DNA of 64,000 bases from Leifsonia soli (GTDB taxonomy: Bacteria > Actinomycetota > Actinomycetes > Actinomycetales > Microbacteriaceae): the NCBI RefSeq assembly GCF_013408745.1, contig NZ_JACCBJ010000001.1, positions 930,001-994,000 of the forward strand, given 5' to 3'. Below, piece after piece: positions 44,479-51,782 of the stretch (its first letter is position 1; every line of letters begins with the position of its first letter). The translations under genes were made by a program, and so were the position numbers. The notes below the pieces were generated by a model. It searched no databases. It saw only the letters and a program-made list of their open reading frames with translations, and was not told the origin of the DNA.

Positions 44479-45435
44479 TCAGGTGGTGAGGATGACGACC
44501 GGGGGGACGATCACCAGGAGCGCCGTCGTGAGGATGACGGCGGCGCGCAGCACGGGGCCGACGGTCCGCCGGCCGTCCGTCAGGCGGTTCTCGCGGGCGA
44601 TCAGAGCGGCCCGTCGCTGTTCCGGGGTGCGGCGATCCTTCGGTGCGCCGAGAACGGCGCCCGCCTGTCCCGTCTCGTCGACGAGGCGGATCGCCCCGGC
44701 GAGCACACGGTCTCCCGCCTCGTGGCGAGCGGTGTCGTCGGCGAGCATCTCCAGGAGCAGTGCGACCGCGTCCTGCGCCCGGGTGGCGATCGGGAACCAG
44801 GGGAGGGCGCGCTTCCACGAACGGAACGCATCGAGCAGCAGGTGGTGCTTCTGGCGCAGGTGGGCGCGCTCGTGGGCGACCACCGCATCCAGCTGGTCGG
44901 GGGAGAGCAGCGCGATCATGCCCTCGGAGAGCACGGTGACGCTGCGCGCTCCCGGCAGGCAGTAGGCGGCGGGGGCCGGGTGGTCGATCACGCGCGTCGT
45001 CGGAGCGTCGGGCAGCGGGGAGGACAGCAGGCGCAGCAGCTCCATGTGCCGGTGCCGCTGATTGCGGCTGCGCACGGACGTGAGCGCGAGGTTCAGGAGG
45101 AGGTGCGCCGTCAGCAGGACGGCCGCGCTCAGCAGGAACGCGTTCAGGAGACTGGCATCGGCGGGAAGCGGCCCGTGGAAGAGCGACCCGGCGGCTCCCT
45201 GGATGCGCGACCAGAGGTCGTCTCCGAACGGCTGCAGGCCAGCGAGGAGCAACGACCCGATCATCGAGATGCCGCCCGCGAGCGCAATCGACTGCCAGAG
45301 TGCGACGGCGAGCACGGGCGCGGCCGACGGCCATTTGGCACGCGCGAGCAGCAGCGGGACCGGCCACGCGAGCGCGATGGCCAGAGCGCCCAGGAAGATC
45401 GCGCCGGCGAGCCCGGCAGCGGGGTCGCTGCTCAC
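44479..45435 (-). CDS. BlaR1-like M56 zinc metalloprotease
   Basis: 318 residues with N-terminal membrane helices, a central HERAH zinc motif (VVAHERAHLRQKHH, about residue 185) and a C-terminal helix near residues 295-315. BlaR1/MecR1 proteases cleave their partner repressor BlaI, but this one is much shorter than BlaR1 and has no penicillin-binding sensor domain, so it must be triggered another way. Its GTG start overlaps the BlaI gene by 4 bp. The pair is divergent from cydA. Confidence 0.9.
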   Translation of the reverse strand: MSSDPAAGLAGAIFLGALAIALAWPVPLLLARAKWPSAAPVLAVALWQSIALAGGISMIGSLLLAGLQPFGDDLWSRIQGAAGSLFHGPLPADASLLNAFLLSAAVLLTAHLLLNLALTSVRSRNQRHRHMELLRLLSSPLPDAPTTRVIDHPAPAAYCLPGARSVTVLSEGMIALLSPDQLDAVVAHERAHLRQKHHLLLDAFRSWKRALPWFPIATRAQDAVALLLEMLADDTARHEAGDRVLAGAIRLVDETGQAGAVLGAPKDRRTPEQRRAALIARENRLTDGRRTVGPVLRAAVILTTALLVIVPPVVILTT

Positions 45436-45800
45436 ACGCTGCGGGCGTCGAGCAGGCGGCGCAGCACCTCGGCTTCCGACTCGTCGACGGATCCGACGAA
45501 GTAGGCGAGCGCCTGGGTGCGGTCGGAGGACGACTCGAGCACTTCGCGCATCAGGTCGGCCACGTGACCGGCGCGGGACAGGGCCGCGTGGTACACGTGC
45601 GGACGCGCGTCGCGGTCGCGGCTGACGAAGCCCTTGGCCTCGAGCCGGGAGAGCACCGTCAGGATCGTCGTGAGCGCAGGAGCCTTGCCCGTGTCGCGGG
45701 TGGCCGCTAGCTTGTCGCGTAGCTCACCCGCCGTGACGGGCGCGTCGCCGTCCCACAGGGCGTCCATGACGGCCCGTTCGAGTTCTCCGAGATTGGCCAC
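45432..45800 (-). CDS. blaI: BlaI/MecI-family repressor
   Basis: 122 residues, family-typical. N-terminal winged helix (MANLGELERAVMDALWDGDAPVT start, then VLSRLEAKGFVSR recognition wing) and a short dimerising C-terminus. It binds TACA/TGTA-type dyads as a dimer and is inactivated by cleavage. TACTCT (minus strand, 45807-45812) lies 6 nt before the GTG, so the message is leaderless, and the first TTCTAC dyad (45833-45849) covers the -35 position of this promoter, giving autorepression. The second dyad is at the cydA promoter. Confidence 0.93.
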   Translation of the reverse strand: MANLGELERAVMDALWDGDAPVTAGELRDKLAATRDTGKAPALTTILTVLSRLEAKGFVSRDRDARPHVYHAALSRAGHVADLMREVLESSSDRTQALAYFVGSVDESEAEVLRRLLDARSV

Positions 45801-45832
45801 GCATCCAGAGTAGCGCGAACAGGCTGAGAATG

Positions 45833-45872
45833 TTCTACACTTCGTAGAAGTTCAGTTCTACACTGTGTAGAA
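45833..45872. promoter_or_regulatory. Twin BlaI-type operators between blaI and cydA
   Basis: Two dyads: TTCTAC-ACTTC-GTAGAA at 45833-45849 and TTCTACACTGTGTAGAA at 45856-45872, the second perfect around a single central base. Their centres are 23 bp apart. The core CTACA..TGTAG matches the known BlaI/MecI half-site TACA/TGTA. They lie upstream of both the leaderless blaI start (45800) and the cydA start (45891); TACACT at 45859-45864 could be the cydA -10. Confidence 0.8.
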
Positions 45873-45890
45873 GAGGCGAAGGGAACTCAC

Positions 45891-47303
45891 GTGAACGAAC
45901 TGCTGGACCCGCTCCTACTGGCACGCTGGCAGTTCGGGCTCACCACGATCTACCACTTCCTGTTCGTGCCGCTGACGATCGGCCTGGTCACCTGCACCGC
46001 GATCTTCCAGACGGCCTGGTACCGCACCGGCAAGCCGCACTACCTGCAGCTCACCCACTTCTTCGGCAAGATCTTCCTCATCAACTTCGCGATGGGCGTG
46101 GTGACCGGCATCGTGCAGGAGTTCCAGTTCGGCATGAACTGGTCGGACTACTCCCGGTTCGTCGGCGACATCTTCGGCGCTCCGCTCGCCCTGGAGGGTC
46201 TGCTCGCGTTCTTCCTGGAGGCGACGTTCATCGGGCTGTGGATCTTCGGCTGGGACCGCCTCCCGAAGGGGCTGCACCTGGCGACGATCTGGATCGTGTC
46301 GGTGGGCAGCATCCTCTCGGCGTACTTCATCCTCGCGGCGAATGCGTTCATGCAGAACCCGGTCGGCTACCACATCAACGCGGCGAAGGGCCGGGCCGAG
46401 CTCACCGACCTGTGGGCCGTGCTGACGAACAAGGTCGCCCTGGCCGCCTTCCCGCACACGATCTTCGGCTGCTTCATGGTGTCCGCCGGCCTCATCATCG
46501 CCGTCGCCGCGTGGCACCTGTCGCGGAACAACCACCTGGAGACGATGCGGCCCGCGCTGAAGTTCGGCCTGTGGCTGATGATCGGCGCCGGGATCGGAAC
46601 GGTCCTCAGCGGCGACCAGCTCGGCCTCGCGATGGTCGAGACGCAGCCGATGAAGATGGCGGCCGCGGAGGCGTTGTACAAGACCTCGACGGGGGCTGAC
46701 GCCTCGTTCTCGATCTTCACCCTCGGCACTCCGGACGGCGTGCACGAGCTGTTTTCCATCCGCGTGCCCTACCTGCTGTCGTTCCTGTCGACCCACAGTC
46801 TGAACGGCACCGTCGAGGGCATCAACGACCTGCAGGCGCAGTACACGCAGCTCTACGGCCCCGGCGACTACACGCCCACCATCTGGATCACCTACTGGGC
46901 CTTCCGCTGGATGATCGGCCTCGGGATGCTGCACGTCGCCATCGCGGTCGTCGGCCTCTGGCTCACCCGCAAGGGACGCATGCCGAACCGCGCCTGGCAG
47001 TGGCGGATCGCGATCTGGGCCATGCCGCTGTCGCTGCTGGCGATGATCGTCGGCTGGATCTTCACCGAGATGGGCCGCCAGCCCTGGATCGTGTTCAGCC
47101 TCATGAAGACGGCCGACGGCGTCTCGCCCGGGACGACGGGACTCGAGGTGCTGATCTCGCTCGTCGCCTTCACCGCCATCTACGGCACCCTCGCGGTGGT
47201 CGAGTTCAAGCTGATCAAGCGCGCCGCCCAGAAGGGCCCTGAGCCGATCGAGAAGCATCTCGACGACGCCGGCGAGCCCATCCCCGTCGCAACGGTCTAC
47301 TAG
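45891..47303 (+). CDS. cydA: Cytochrome bd ubiquinol oxidase subunit I
   Basis: 470 residues, nine or so helices. It oxidises quinol and reduces oxygen to water without proton pumping, with high oxygen affinity. Haem ligands are recognisable: TTIYHFLFVPL (His of b595), GLLAFFLEATF (Glu pair for haem d) and AFPHTIFGC (His of b558). The Q-loop is of the short type, with ETQPMKMAAAEAL supplying the conserved Lys and Glu. AAGGGA (45879-45884) precedes the GTG. First gene of cydABDC. Confidence 0.97.
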   Translation: MNELLDPLLLARWQFGLTTIYHFLFVPLTIGLVTCTAIFQTAWYRTGKPHYLQLTHFFGKIFLINFAMGVVTGIVQEFQFGMNWSDYSRFVGDIFGAPLALEGLLAFFLEATFIGLWIFGWDRLPKGLHLATIWIVSVGSILSAYFILAANAFMQNPVGYHINAAKGRAELTDLWAVLTNKVALAAFPHTIFGCFMVSAGLIIAVAAWHLSRNNHLETMRPALKFGLWLMIGAGIGTVLSGDQLGLAMVETQPMKMAAAEALYKTSTGADASFSIFTLGTPDGVHELFSIRVPYLLSFLSTHSLNGTVEGINDLQAQYTQLYGPGDYTPTIWITYWAFRWMIGLGMLHVAIAVVGLWLTRKGRMPNRAWQWRIAIWAMPLSLLAMIVGWIFTEMGRQPWIVFSLMKTADGVSPGTTGLEVLISLVAFTAIYGTLAVVEFKLIKRAAQKGPEPIEKHLDDAGEPIPVATVY

Positions 47304-47316
47304 GAGGAGCACGACA

Positions 47317-48345
47317 ATGGATCTCGCAGTTCTCTGGTTCGGCATCGTCGCCTTCTTCTTCGTCGGCTACTTCGTGCTCGACGGCTTCGACTTCGGGGTG
47401 GGGATGGCGCTGCCGTTCCTCGGCCGCGACGACGTCGACCGCCGCGTGATGATCAACACGATCGGTCCGGTCTGGGACCTCAACGAGACGTGGGTCATCG
47501 TGGGCGGCGCCGCGCTCTTCGCCGCGTTCCCCGAGTGGTACGCCACCCTGTTCAGCGGCTTCTACCTGGCGCTGCTGCTCATCCTGCTCGCGCTGATCGT
47601 CCGCGGTGTGTCGTTCGAGTACCGGCACCAGCGGGCGGGCGCGCGGTGGAAGAAGTGGTTCGACGGGATGATCATCGTCGGCTCCGCCGTCCCGGCGTTC
47701 CTCTGGGGGGTCGCCTTCGCCAACATCGTGCAGGGCGTCGCGCTGAACGCGAACCACGACTACACCGGGACGCTGTTCGACCTCCTCAACGGTTACGCGA
47801 TCGTCGGCGGTCTGACCACCCTCCTGCTGTTCTTCACCCACGGGGTCGTGTTCATCTCGCTGAAGACGGACGGCGACCTGCGGGCCAGGGCGCGCCGCCT
47901 CGCCACACGCTCGGGCGCCGTCGCGATCGTCGTCGCAGCGGTCTTCCTCGGCTGGACGGCGGTCTCTCACTTCTCGCCGGTGTTCCTCGCGCTCGCGATC
48001 TTCGCGGCCGTCGCGCTCGTCGCCTCGTGGATCGCCAACCTGCGCGGGGCGGAGGGGTGGTCGTTCGGCTTCATGGCCGCGACCATCGCTCTGGCCGTCG
48101 TTTCGCTGTTCGCCGCGCTGTTCCCGGATGTGATGCCCTCGTCGCCCAACCCGGAGAACAGCCTGACCATCGCGAACGCGTCCAGCTCGCAGACCACGCT
48201 CACGATCATGACCTGGGTCGCGGCGATCTTCCTCCCGCTGATCCTGGTGTATCAGGGCTGGACCTACTGGATCTTCCGCAAGCGCGTGACGCGCGACCAC
48301 ATCCCGCAGGAGGCCGCGGACGACCAGCGAACCGTGACGGCCTGA
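47317..48345 (+). CDS. cydB: Cytochrome bd ubiquinol oxidase subunit II
   Basis: 342 residues, about eight helices, N-terminus LAVLWFGIVAFFFVGYFVLDGFDFGVGM-like as in all CydB. Partner of CydA in the oxidase. AGGAGGAG (47302-47309) precedes the ATG, a strong ribosome site. It ends two bases before the cydD GTG. Confidence 0.97.
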   Translation: MDLAVLWFGIVAFFFVGYFVLDGFDFGVGMALPFLGRDDVDRRVMINTIGPVWDLNETWVIVGGAALFAAFPEWYATLFSGFYLALLLILLALIVRGVSFEYRHQRAGARWKKWFDGMIIVGSAVPAFLWGVAFANIVQGVALNANHDYTGTLFDLLNGYAIVGGLTTLLLFFTHGVVFISLKTDGDLRARARRLATRSGAVAIVVAAVFLGWTAVSHFSPVFLALAIFAAVALVASWIANLRGAEGWSFGFMAATIALAVVSLFAALFPDVMPSSPNPENSLTIANASSSQTTLTIMTWVAAIFLPLILVYQGWTYWIFRKRVTRDHIPQEAADDQRTVTA

Positions 48346-48346
48346 C

Positions 48347-50041
48347 GTGCGCCCGCTCGACCCCCGCCTCCTGCGGTACGCGCAGGCGACCCGCGGCACG
48401 CTCGTCGCGGGCGCCGGGCTCGCCGTGCTGCAGACCGCGTGCGTCATCGCGTTCGCCTGGCTGGTGACCCAGCTGGTGGTGCGGTCGATCGCGGGCGAGT
48501 CGCTGGCCGCGCTCGCCCCGACGATCGGCCTGCTCGGCCTCGTCGTGGTCGTGCGCGCTGCGGTGCTGTGGGCGGTCGAGTCGGTGTCGTCCCGTGGGGG
48601 CGCCCGCGCGGTGGGTCAACTGCGGGAGCGCCTGGTCGCCGCCGTCGGACGGCTAGGCCCCGGCTGGGTCGCACGCCGCAGCACGGCCGAGGTCACCCTC
48701 GTCGCCGGCCACGGCATGGATGCGCTCGACGGGTATTTTGCGAAATACCTGCCGCAGCTCATCGGCACCGCCATCGCGACGCCGCTGCTCGTGCTCACCA
48801 TCGGCTGGCGGGATCTCACCAGCGGGATCATTCTCGTGATCACCCTGCCGCTCATCCCCGTGTTCATGGTGCTCGTCGGCTGGGCGACGCAGGCTGCGCA
48901 GAAGCGGCAGTGGCGTGCGCTGTCGACGCTTTCCAGCGGATTCCTCGATGTCGTCGCCGGGCTCTCCACGCTGAAGCTGTTCGGGCGGCAGCATCGCCAG
49001 GAGGCGCGCATCCGCCAGGTGAGCGAGCAGTACCGCGTGCACACCATGCGGGTGCTGCGGATGTCGTTCCTCTCCGGCTTCGTGCTGGAGCTGGCCGCCA
49101 GCCTGTCCGTCGCGGTGATCGCGGTCACCATCGGCCTGCGTCTGCTGGGCGGCTCGATGGACCTCTCGGTCGGGTTGTTCGTGCTGCTGCTCGCTCCGGA
49201 GGCGTTCCTGCCCCTGCGCAACGTGGGCGCGAGCTACCACGCGGCGGCGGAGGGGATCGAGGCGGCGTCGAACGCGTTCGCCGTCATCGAGGCGGCGGAG
49301 GCCGTGCCGGAGGCCGCTCCGGGCGCGGACCCGGCCGCCGGTACCGGTCTGGTGCTCCAGGATGTGCGGATCGCCTACGACGGACGCACGGTCGTCGACC
49401 GCTTCGGTGCCGAGATTCCCCCTGGCACCTTCGCCGTGCTGCGCGCGCCGAGCGGAGCGGGCAAGTCGAGCCTGATCTCCGGGGTGCTGGGGTTCACGGA
49501 CGCCGAAGGACGCATCCTCGCGGGAGGAAGGACCGATGCCGCCGGGCGGCGCGAAGCGATCGCCTGGGCCGGACAGCGGCCCGGTCTGCTGGCCGGGAGC
49601 ATCGCGGAGAACGTCGCGCTGGGCGACGCGCGCGCCGAACAGGCAGCCGCCGAGGACGCGCGCGTGGCGGAGGCGCTGCGGGATGCGGCCGCCGACGAGC
49701 TGGACCCGTCGTTCGTGCTCGGCCCGGGCGGCTCCGGTCTCTCCGGCGGGCAGGCGCAGCGGGTCGCGGTGGCGCGGGCGCTCTATCGCCTCCGCGCCCG
49801 CGGCTGCCCTGTGCTGATCCTGGACGAGCCGACCTCGGCGCTCGACGCAGAGACGGAGGCGCGCGTGCTGCGGTCGTTGCGGCGCGCGGCCGACGAGGGG
49901 GCGGCCGTCCTGGTCGTCAGCCACCGGCCCGCGGTGGCGGAGGCGGCGGATGTCGTCCTCACACTGCCGGCGAGGGATGCGGACGAGGTCCCAGGGGCCG
50001 GCGTCCCGGCCGAGACGAGCGAGGTGTCGCGTGTCCGCTGA
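48347..50041 (+). CDS. cydD: CydD, ABC exporter subunit for cytochrome bd assembly
   Basis: 564 residues: six-helix exporter domain and an ATPase with Walker A APSGAGKSSL, signature LSGGQAQRVAVARAL and Walker B VLILDEPTSALD. With CydC it exports reduced glutathione or cysteine (or handles haem) and is required for mature cytochrome bd. Starts right after cydB and overlaps cydC by 11 bp. Confidence 0.95.
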   Translation: MRPLDPRLLRYAQATRGTLVAGAGLAVLQTACVIAFAWLVTQLVVRSIAGESLAALAPTIGLLGLVVVVRAAVLWAVESVSSRGGARAVGQLRERLVAAVGRLGPGWVARRSTAEVTLVAGHGMDALDGYFAKYLPQLIGTAIATPLLVLTIGWRDLTSGIILVITLPLIPVFMVLVGWATQAAQKRQWRALSTLSSGFLDVVAGLSTLKLFGRQHRQEARIRQVSEQYRVHTMRVLRMSFLSGFVLELAASLSVAVIAVTIGLRLLGGSMDLSVGLFVLLLAPEAFLPLRNVGASYHAAAEGIEAASNAFAVIEAAEAVPEAAPGADPAAGTGLVLQDVRIAYDGRTVVDRFGAEIPPGTFAVLRAPSGAGKSSLISGVLGFTDAEGRILAGGRTDAAGRREAIAWAGQRPGLLAGSIAENVALGDARAEQAAAEDARVAEALRDAAADELDPSFVLGPGGSGLSGGQAQRVAVARALYRLRARGCPVLILDEPTSALDAETEARVLRSLRRAADEGAAVLVVSHRPAVAEAADVVLTLPARDADEVPGAGVPAETSEVSRVR

Positions 50042-51782
50042 GTCGTCGCAGAGCCCGATGTCCGGACCGGGCGCCCGGGGCGCCGCGGACCCGGCCGAGG
50101 TGCGCCGCATCCTCCGGCTGGCGCTCCCGTCCCCGGGCCGGCTATGGACGGCCATCGGGTTCGGTGTGCTGAGCGGCGGGAGCGCCGTCGCCCTGCTCGG
50201 CGTCTCGGCCTGGCTGATCACGCGCGCGTCGGAGCAGCCCGCGCTGATGTACCTGTCGGCGGCGATCGTCGGCGTCCGGGCGTTTGCGCTCGGCCGCGCC
50301 TTCTTCCGGTACTTGGAGCGGCTGGCCGGCCACGATGCGGCGTTCCGGCAGCTCGGGACGGTGCGGTCGCGTCTCTACGCCCGGCTCGAACCGCTGGCGC
50401 CCGACGGACTCCGCGGTGTGCGGTCGGGCGACCTCCTCGCCCGGTTGGCGGACGACGTGGACGAGCTCCAGAATCTGGCGCTGCGGGTCATCCAGCCCCT
50501 GGTCAGCGCCGGTCTCGTCGCTGCGGGAAGCGTCGTCGCGGCGTTCCTGATCCTGCCGGCGGCGGGCGTCGCGCTGCTGGTCACCCTCGCGGTGGCCCTG
50601 GTCGCCGGCCTGCTGGTGAACCGGTGGGTCGCCGGCGCCGCGGAGCGTCGCATCGCGCCCCTCCGGGCCGAGCTCAACGACGCCCTGCACGACCTGGTCG
50701 CCAACCTCGACGTGCTGACCGCTTTCGACGCGCTCCCCGCCGCGCAGGAGCGCGTCCGCGTGGCCGGCGAGCGGCTGACGACCGCGTCGCGCACCCGCGC
50801 CGTGGGGCTCGGCGCCACCGCGGGCGCGGTGTCCCTGCTCGCGGGCGCGGCGACCCTCTTCGGGCTCGCGGGAGGCATCCCCGCTCTGGCGGGCGGCTCG
50901 CTCAGCGCGCCGGGGCTGGCCGTGGTCGCGCTGCTCCCGCTCGCCGTGTTCGAGGTCTTCGGCACCGTCCCTCTGGCGTTCGGCGCCTGGCGGCGCGTGC
51001 GGGCGAGCGCCGAGCGGATCGCATCCGCGGCTCCGGTCGCGGTGCCGGACGGCGTACCCGTGGATGCGGCGGGCGCGCTCGACGCGGTCGCGATCGTCGG
51101 GGCGGACGCATCCGGCGGCGTCCCCGACGTCCGGCTCGACGCCGTGTCGGCGCACTGGCCGGACGACGGCCGGGAGGTGCTGCGCGACCTCACGCTGCGG
51201 CTGAAGCCGGGGGAGCGCGTGCTGCTGACCGGCCCGACCGGCGCGGGCAAGACGGCGCTCGCCCACGTGCTGACGCGGCTGATCGACCACACCGGCGAGT
51301 ACTCGATCGACGGCGTCCCGACGCGCGACCTGCGACAGGACGACGTGCGGCGCATCGTCGGCCTGGTGGAGCAGCGTCCCTACCTGTTCCACTCCGATCT
51401 CCGCCAGAACCTCCTGTTCGCCCGCGAGACGGCGACCGATGACGACCTGCTCGCCGTGCTCGCCCGAGTCGGCCTGCGCGATTGGGCGCTCGCCCGGGGC
51501 GGGCTCTCGGAACCCGTCGGCGAGCGCGGCGCCCTGGTCTCGGGCGGCCAGGCGCAGCGCATCGCGCTCGCCCGCGCGCTGCTGGCCGACTTCCCGGTGC
51601 TGGTGGTCGACGAGCCGACGGCCAATGTCGACAGCGCCGTGGCGGACGCGATCGTGCGGGATGTCCTCCGGACGGCGGCGGAGGACGGCCGAACGGTGCT
51701 CCTGATCTCGCACACGGAGGTGCCGACGGATCTCGTAGATCGGGTGGTGCGGCTGGAGGACGGGGCCCTGGTCGGGGCGTGA
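50031..51782 (+). CDS. cydC: CydC, ABC exporter subunit for cytochrome bd assembly
   Basis: 583 residues from the GTG at 50031, within the cydD 3' end; the longer upstream frame in cydD is rejected. Exporter-type membrane domain with LLGVSAWLITRASEQPALM typical of CydC, then an ATPase with Walker A GPTGAGKTAL, VSGGQAQRIALARALL and VLVVDEPTANVD. Forms the heterodimer with CydD. It ends 17 bp from the stop of the convergent pabC; a small hairpin (GGCGG-CAGG-CCGCC, 51783-51796) lies between. Confidence 0.95.
   Translation: MSAESSQSPMSGPGARGAADPAEVRRILRLALPSPGRLWTAIGFGVLSGGSAVALLGVSAWLITRASEQPALMYLSAAIVGVRAFALGRAFFRYLERLAGHDAAFRQLGTVRSRLYARLEPLAPDGLRGVRSGDLLARLADDVDELQNLALRVIQPLVSAGLVAAGSVVAAFLILPAAGVALLVTLAVALVAGLLVNRWVAGAAERRIAPLRAELNDALHDLVANLDVLTAFDALPAAQERVRVAGERLTTASRTRAVGLGATAGAVSLLAGAATLFGLAGGIPALAGGSLSAPGLAVVALLPLAVFEVFGTVPLAFGAWRRVRASAERIASAAPVAVPDGVPVDAAGALDAVAIVGADASGGVPDVRLDAVSAHWPDDGREVLRDLTLRLKPGERVLLTGPTGAGKTALAHVLTRLIDHTGEYSIDGVPTRDLRQDDVRRIVGLVEQRPYLFHSDLRQNLLFARETATDDDLLAVLARVGLRDWALARGGLSEPVGERGALVSGGQAQRIALARALLADFPVLVVDEPTANVDSAVADAIVRDVLRTAAEDGRTVLLISHTEVPTDLVDRVVRLEDGALVGA

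Follow-up and report, generated by a model that had tools for sequence, protein, structure and literature searches.

The gene order at one locus of Leifsonia soli raises the question of why a repressor and protease pair of the BlaI/BlaR type, members of a family named for antibiotic resistance, is encoded divergently from the genes for cytochrome bd. This oxidase gives actinobacteria, including mycobacteria, tolerance of respiratory inhibitors, and the way in which it is switched on is only partly understood. The locus lies within a window of 64,000 bp, the whole stretch of DNA analysed here, which corresponds to C1:930001-994000 of the 3.92 Mb L. soli genome. From the sequence, it is highly probable that BlaI represses both the cydABDC operon and its own blaI-blaR operon and that BlaR, a protease of the BlaR1 fold devoid of a sensor domain, relieves this repression when the respiratory chain is in trouble. 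The data suggest that in many relatives, too, the BlaI/BlaR pair is a regulator of respiration rather than of antibiotic resistance.

Two operators in the blaI-cydA intergenic region

The repressor gene blaI (45432..45800, minus strand), which is probably leaderless, encodes a winged-helix protein of 122 residues that matches the Penicillinase_R profile of the BlaI/MecI repressors (Pfam PF03965, E 1.1e-21) with 77.8 bits against a gathering score of 22.6. In a search of PDB sequences its sole match at E <= 0.001 was 2g9w, presumably M. tuberculosis BlaI. The protease gene blaR (44479..45435, minus strand; 318 residues, no sensor domain) overlaps blaI by 4 bp. On the plus strand, cydA (45891..47303; PF01654, E 1.2e-163) encodes cytochrome bd subunit I.

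Between the divergent blaI and cydA lie two exact copies of the 17-bp dyad TTCTAC-N5-GTAGAA, located by pattern scan and by their conservation. Operator 1 (TTCTACACTTCGTAGAA, 45833..45849) and operator 2 (TTCTACACTGTGTAGAA, 45856..45872) are separated by 23 bp from start to start, exactly as a preliminary description of this DNA had reported. They are the only exact dyads in the window, and the entire genome contains a single further copy, at C1:12692-12708. The reversed pattern, used as a control, is absent from this genome and occurs 0 or 1 times per genome in 27 congeners. The operators of BlaI/MecI repressors are palindromes of the TACA/TGTA type located by the repressor's own promoter, the half-site definition being taken from the preliminary description and from general knowledge. 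Both half-sites had been attributed to both dyads; dyad 2 does carry the complete pair, but dyad 1 reads TACA/CGTA and retains one half.

The position of the operators relative to the promoters is revealed by comparison of 28 Leifsonia genomes, L. soli included, 26 of which contain two exact dyads. In these 26 the dyad on the blaI side is asymmetric (TTCTACACT...), with C at position 8 in 25 and T at position 9 in all. Because the asymmetric TACACT (45836..45841, plus strand) is conserved within operator 1, the probable cydA -10 is placed there. Similarly, in 27 of the 28 genomes the distance between the blaI start and operator 1 is 31-32 bp, and the blaI -35 is therefore placed under this operator, while the sequence and its congeners point to TACTCT (45807..45812, minus strand), 6 nt 5' of the start codon, as the probable blaI -10. 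The centre of operator 2 varies across the genus and the gap of ~90 bp shows little conservation beyond the dyads, save for TAnnnT six bases 5' of blaI. Dyad 1 would thus probably serve both the cydA and the blaI promoters, and dyad 2 probably sits a short way past the point where cydA transcription begins. The original assignment, in which one dyad belonged to the blaI promoter and its partner to the cydA -10, looks reversed or shared.

Conservation of the operators with cydA and BlaI

All 28 Leifsonia genomes encode a BlaI orthologue together with BlaR and a divergent cydA, and each has at least one exact dyad, so that the refuting condition named in the preliminary description, loss of the dyads in relatives with this gene order, did not arise in the genus. 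Where two exact dyads are present their spacing is 22 bp (2 genomes), 23 bp (11) or 24 bp (13), and the two remaining genomes (G017 and G022) carry one exact and one single-mismatch copy each. The earlier proposal of a BlaI/BlaR-like pair with operators before a respiratory target is supported.

A scan blind to gene content (CTACN5GTAGWA-N3..10-TWCTACN5GTAGWA) over named species genomes returned at least 119 stretches, and the figures that follow hold among the matches listed. cydA was present in 81 stretches and in all of them the dyad centre was 29-160 bp (median 59) upstream of it; in 75 of 75 stretches with both genes the dyads were located between divergent blaI and cydA. These cydA-linked tandem dyads extend to Arthrobacter, Pseudarthrobacter, Paenarthrobacter, Sinomonas, Nesterenkonia, Cryobacterium, Agromyces, Agreia, Herbiconiux, Microbacterium, Blastococcus, Geodermatophilus and Modestobacter. 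One match bears the unverified label Bacillus and its gene content looks actinobacterial. BlaI was missing from six cydA stretches: in L210 it is merely truncated where the stretch ends, and in L147, L167, L173, L218 and L226 it is located elsewhere in the genome; in a further stretch, L241, it lies 3.8 kb away. At the six loci where blaI is non-adjacent the dyads remain at cydA, and the BlaI proteins of those genomes are 50-62% identical to that of the window.

A class-wide set of 108 genomes, 80 of them with cydA, allowed 80 cydA loci from 71 genomes to be fetched. These represent the stronger of the cydA matches listed, with weaker and partial matches excluded, as were L. soli itself and G041, both seen earlier; some stretches end at contig ends. 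The dyad was found at 23 loci and BlaI within the stretch at 20, with both at 10, leaving 13 dyad-bearing loci with no BlaI inside the fetched stretch. All 35 dyads of the survey are within 300 bp upstream of cydA and none occurs in the remaining 400,150 bp, the reversed pattern occurring 5 times in total in these stretches. The dyads at cydA are spread over 8 of 24 families.

The dyads could alternatively be autoregulatory operators of blaI-blaR only, with the divergent cydA a bystander, as autoregulation is usual for BlaI-family genes and the two dyads of the L. soli locus lie within reach of blaI. The persistence of the dyads at cydA where blaI is non-adjacent or outside the stretch, and their presence at many other respiration genes (see below), make this quite unlikely.

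At the genome level, BlaI and the dyad at cydA were both present in 23 cases, BlaI alone in 31, the dyad alone in none and neither in 17. A BlaI homologue hence accompanies the dyad in 23 of 23 genomes and the dyad is found in 0 of the 17 BlaI-less ones (Fisher p 6.6e-4, ignoring kinship). The form of the dyad also shifts along with the divergence of BlaI. The form TACTAC-N5-GTAGTA, with 8 sites in seven whole genomes, 7 of them at cydA (the genomes being chosen for one there), accompanies a more divergent BlaI. Of ten BlaI-linked cydA loci read that lack the exact dyad, seven carry GTCGTAG with CTACGAC, two (L311 and L342) TACTAC with GTCGTAG, and one (L351) neither. The drifted operators at BlaI-linked cydA (L309, L311, L313-L315, L319, L321, L323 and L342) constitute a natural series of repressor-operator co-evolution. 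A regulator other than BlaI, such as an HTH_20 or SufR-like protein, might bind the dyads, since helix-turn-helix genes adjoin some of them and BlaI binding is here a prediction. The constant company of a BlaI homologue in the class-wide survey, the adjacency of blaI itself and the parallel change of operator and repressor make this the least likely of the readings considered.

Genes preceded by the dyad at other loci

The third dyad of the L. soli genome, outside the window, lies before a DUF1254/DUF1214 gene that is followed by pta and ackA, the position of ackA directly 3' of pta having been checked in this genome. A dyad before the DUF1254/DUF1214 gene is present in 24 of the 28 Leifsonia genomes, with pta next in all 24. 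In 14 of 18 cases 29-60 bp separate it from the predicted start, and in the other four the longest open reading frame begins ahead of the dyad. The G022 dyad lies 270 bp before pta, and no DUF1254 gene was found between them. This conserved dyad links an uncharacterised DUF1254 protein to the putative BlaI regulon. Elsewhere in the genus, a dyad occurs at the start of ctaD in four congeners, beside an uncharacterised membrane protein gene in three and, as a tandem, immediately before the gene (ppk2) for a polyphosphate kinase of the PPK2 type in two genomes (L099:2989-3022 and L107:3039-3072). The two ppk2 dyads abut, at 17 bp from start to start, and the L107 gene matches in two frames.

In 13 named genomes of other genera 55 exact dyads were found, 32 at cydA or blaI and 23 elsewhere, all of the latter being read. 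Of these 23 sites, 17 belong to the following groups: hemQ (4), hmp (3), atpB (2), ctaC, pta and ppa (1 each), a His-phosphatase gene with ResA-like and ResB genes of cytochrome c maturation (4) and a CopC-PCuAC-Dyp operon (1). The others precede a small membrane protein (4), a PNPOx gene and a helix-turn-helix gene, and six of the 13 genomes have no exact dyad beyond the cyd locus. Four genera of the Arthrobacter group were sampled (Arthrobacter, Pseudarthrobacter, Paenarthrobacter and Sinomonas); each of them has dyads at hemQ, at the cytochrome c locus and at the small membrane protein, and three have one at hmp. The uncharacterised small membrane protein carries the dyad in five genera and its L366 copy matches neither Pfam nor NCBIfam; it is perhaps a new respiration-related protein.

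Six further genomes contained 47 exact dyads, 14 of them at cydA or blaI, and 12 of the 31 sites read among the 33 others precede clear respiration, heme or copper genes. Nesterenkonia alba has 23 exact dyads in a 2.6 Mb genome (0 for the reversed control). Among the genes preceded by them are hemQ, ctaC, the heme O synthase gene ctaB, SURF1, sdhC, one of ResA-like type and a unit of two genes that includes CopC. The regulon of this species appears expanded, also taking in universal stress proteins, a P-type ATPase and an aldolase. In Arthrobacter echini the dyad precedes qcrC and hmp, and in two other genomes of the six it precedes hmp, one of these also having it before CopC.

A BlaR protease lacking the penicillin sensor

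BlaR possesses the membrane zinc protease domain of BlaR1, with its HExxH motif. Its only Pfam match is to M48 (41.2 bits), the M56 cut-off not being reached, and three of its relatives match M56 below the cut-off. The fold alignment of BlaR to BlaR1 stops at BlaR1 residue 291, indicating that the 318-residue protein has no penicillin-binding sensor domain, and no K[ST]G motif is found beyond residue 300 in 109 complete relatives. Cys-159 (AYCLPG), which lies on the strand preceding the HExxH helix, does not vary among 28 aligned BlaR proteins and is a candidate sensing residue.

The family names would fit a circuit of the classical kind, responsive to beta-lactams or envelope stress, with cytochrome bd as an additional target, and M. 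tuberculosis BlaI is described as a repressor of blaC as well (PMC5473688). In contrast, the sole PF13354 beta-lactamase of the L. soli genome has no dyad in its locus at up to 2 mismatches (other beta-lactamase families were not searched), and no beta-lactamase gene occurs among the dyad-adjacent genes identified. As BlaR in addition ends after its protease part, such a circuit is very unlikely, and the envelope or beta-lactam input suggested in the preliminary description is not upheld.

Proposed regulatory circuit

Repression of cydABDC by BlaI is the simplest reading because the operators lie over the promoter. BlaI, a dimer by family, would bind both operators and block cydABDC, operator 1 covering the probable cydA -10 and operator 2 lying just past the start, and through operator 1 it would also block its own blaI-blaR operon. 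Relief is assigned to BlaR because the family behaves in this manner: on sensing trouble in the respiratory chain, BlaR would inactivate the repressor, most likely by cleaving it, which would turn on cydABDC, blaI-blaR and DUF1254-pta-ackA. The net output would be an alternative oxidase together with an ATP-yielding acetate route. A respiratory signal is favoured because the targets comprise a copper-free oxidase, heme and cytochrome assembly, nitric oxide defence, the acetate route and ATP synthase.

Several observations weigh against this circuit or its generality. A consensus promoter scan found nothing on either strand, and the promoter placement therefore derives from conservation. In the class-wide survey 60 of the 80 cydA loci have no BlaI inside the fetched stretch, and in 31 of the 54 BlaI-bearing genomes cydA is without an exact dyad; many other BlaI-bearing genomes without it may use other control. 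Among the matches listed in the gene-blind scan, 38 of the 119 tandem-dyad stretches lack cydA, mostly from Clostridia, Paenibacillus, Planctomycetes and other phyla and including two actinobacteria (L208 and L236). Finally, in the six further genomes 19 of the 31 sites read precede stress, transport, other or unknown genes, among them genes for universal stress proteins, PNPOx, a P-type ATPase and a SufR-like protein. Similarly spaced tandem dyads were observed without cydA in the piece in metagenome-assembled Clostridia (L127, L138, L145, L150, L197, L216, L240 and others) and in Paenibacillus (L125, L172 and L227), and a few non-actinobacterial tandem dyads adjoin a distant BlaI.

As to the signal received by BlaR, copper or oxidase insufficiency is a guess. 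A link to copper is favoured by the example of the cyanobacterial PetR/PetP pair and by dyads before CopC genes, seen in three genera, one of which also has PCuAC there. In addition, a copper-nutrition study describes a rise of cyd and atp genes in an M. tuberculosis sigC mutant (PMC7924339), and sigC is named as a BlaI-regulon gene in PMC8265638. Oxidase insufficiency is ranked first, with copper as one of its causes, because copper activates PetP, the protease of that cyanobacterial pair (PMC7896320 and PMC13421787), yet cyd should rise at copper shortage. A wider and rather doubtful extension is that BlaI/BlaR of the Actinomycetes might be an ancestral master switch that governs aerobic respiration through proteolysis. 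It would respond when the heme-copper oxidase branch falls short, be it through copper shortage, an inhibitor or low oxygen. Released from it would be the copper-free cytochrome bd together with genes for heme, cytochrome c and copper delivery, by which the aa3 branch is rebuilt; control of beta-lactamase would have been added later as a side use.

Because its operator code can be read, such a pair of protease and repressor would render the switching of cytochrome bd testable in harmless soil genera, and would help to explain the contact of mycobacterial BlaI with respiration. It would also recast a family named for antibiotic resistance, in this actinobacterial group, as largely a regulator of respiration.

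Downstream genes of the operon

The complete cydABDC announced in the preliminary description is confirmed, as the three genes following cydA on the plus strand all exceed their NCBIfam cut-offs. cydB (47317..48345, TIGR00203), 3' of cydA, encodes cytochrome bd subunit II and is followed by cydD (48347..50041, TIGR02857) and cydC (49950..51782 for the open reading frame as listed, TIGR02868), whose true start is probably later.

Comparison with known systems

The BlaI and MecI operators of Staphylococcus and Bacillus have the form TACA-N2-TGTA, in contrast to the longer centre, TACA-N3-TGTA, in Leifsonia. Leifsonia BlaR also differs from the BlaR1 and MecR1 of those genera in having no penicillin sensor, and the targets are other. 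The CopY/TcrY copper repressors are matched weakly by BlaI (TIGR02698, 30.2 bits against a curated cut-off of 121.95), and membership of that family was rejected.

The BlaI family, a BlaI/BlaR pair with no beta-lactam role and a link between BlaI and cyd in M. tuberculosis are already in print. No report was found of the blaI-blaR/cydABDC arrangement, the two operators or a wide respiratory regulon, in a literature search whose coverage left out most subscription journals. The systems closest in kind look to be cyanobacterial PetR/PetP and M. tuberculosis BlaI.

M. tuberculosis BlaI/BlaR (Rv1846c/Rv1845c) resembles the Leifsonia pair in the 2g9w match, in the sensor-less BlaR and in the cyd and atp promoters. 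According to PMC5473688, mycobacterial BlaR likewise has no sensor domain and BlaI is said, with reference to Sala 2009, to bind the promoters of cytochrome bd and ATP synthase; the earlier statement that BlaI affects mycobacterial respiration genes thus stands at second hand. PMC7924339 names rv1305 and atpE as predicted regulon members. Leifsonia differs in the divergent arrangement of blaI-blaR and cydABDC around two operators, and no operator was found at its PF13354 beta-lactamase, in contrast to the repression of blaC by M. tuberculosis BlaI.

In cyanobacterial PetR/PetP (PMC7896320 and PMC13421787), a BlaI-family regulator and a BlaR1-family protease swap electron-transport proteins by proteolysis and have no beta-lactam role. 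The Leifsonia pair shares with it the linkage to an electron-transport target, through gene order and dyads. PetR/PetP acts on petE, petJ and two unknown proteins, and PetR also activates. In contrast, the predicted targets in Leifsonia are a quinol oxidase and a wider respiration set, and the copper link is a guess.

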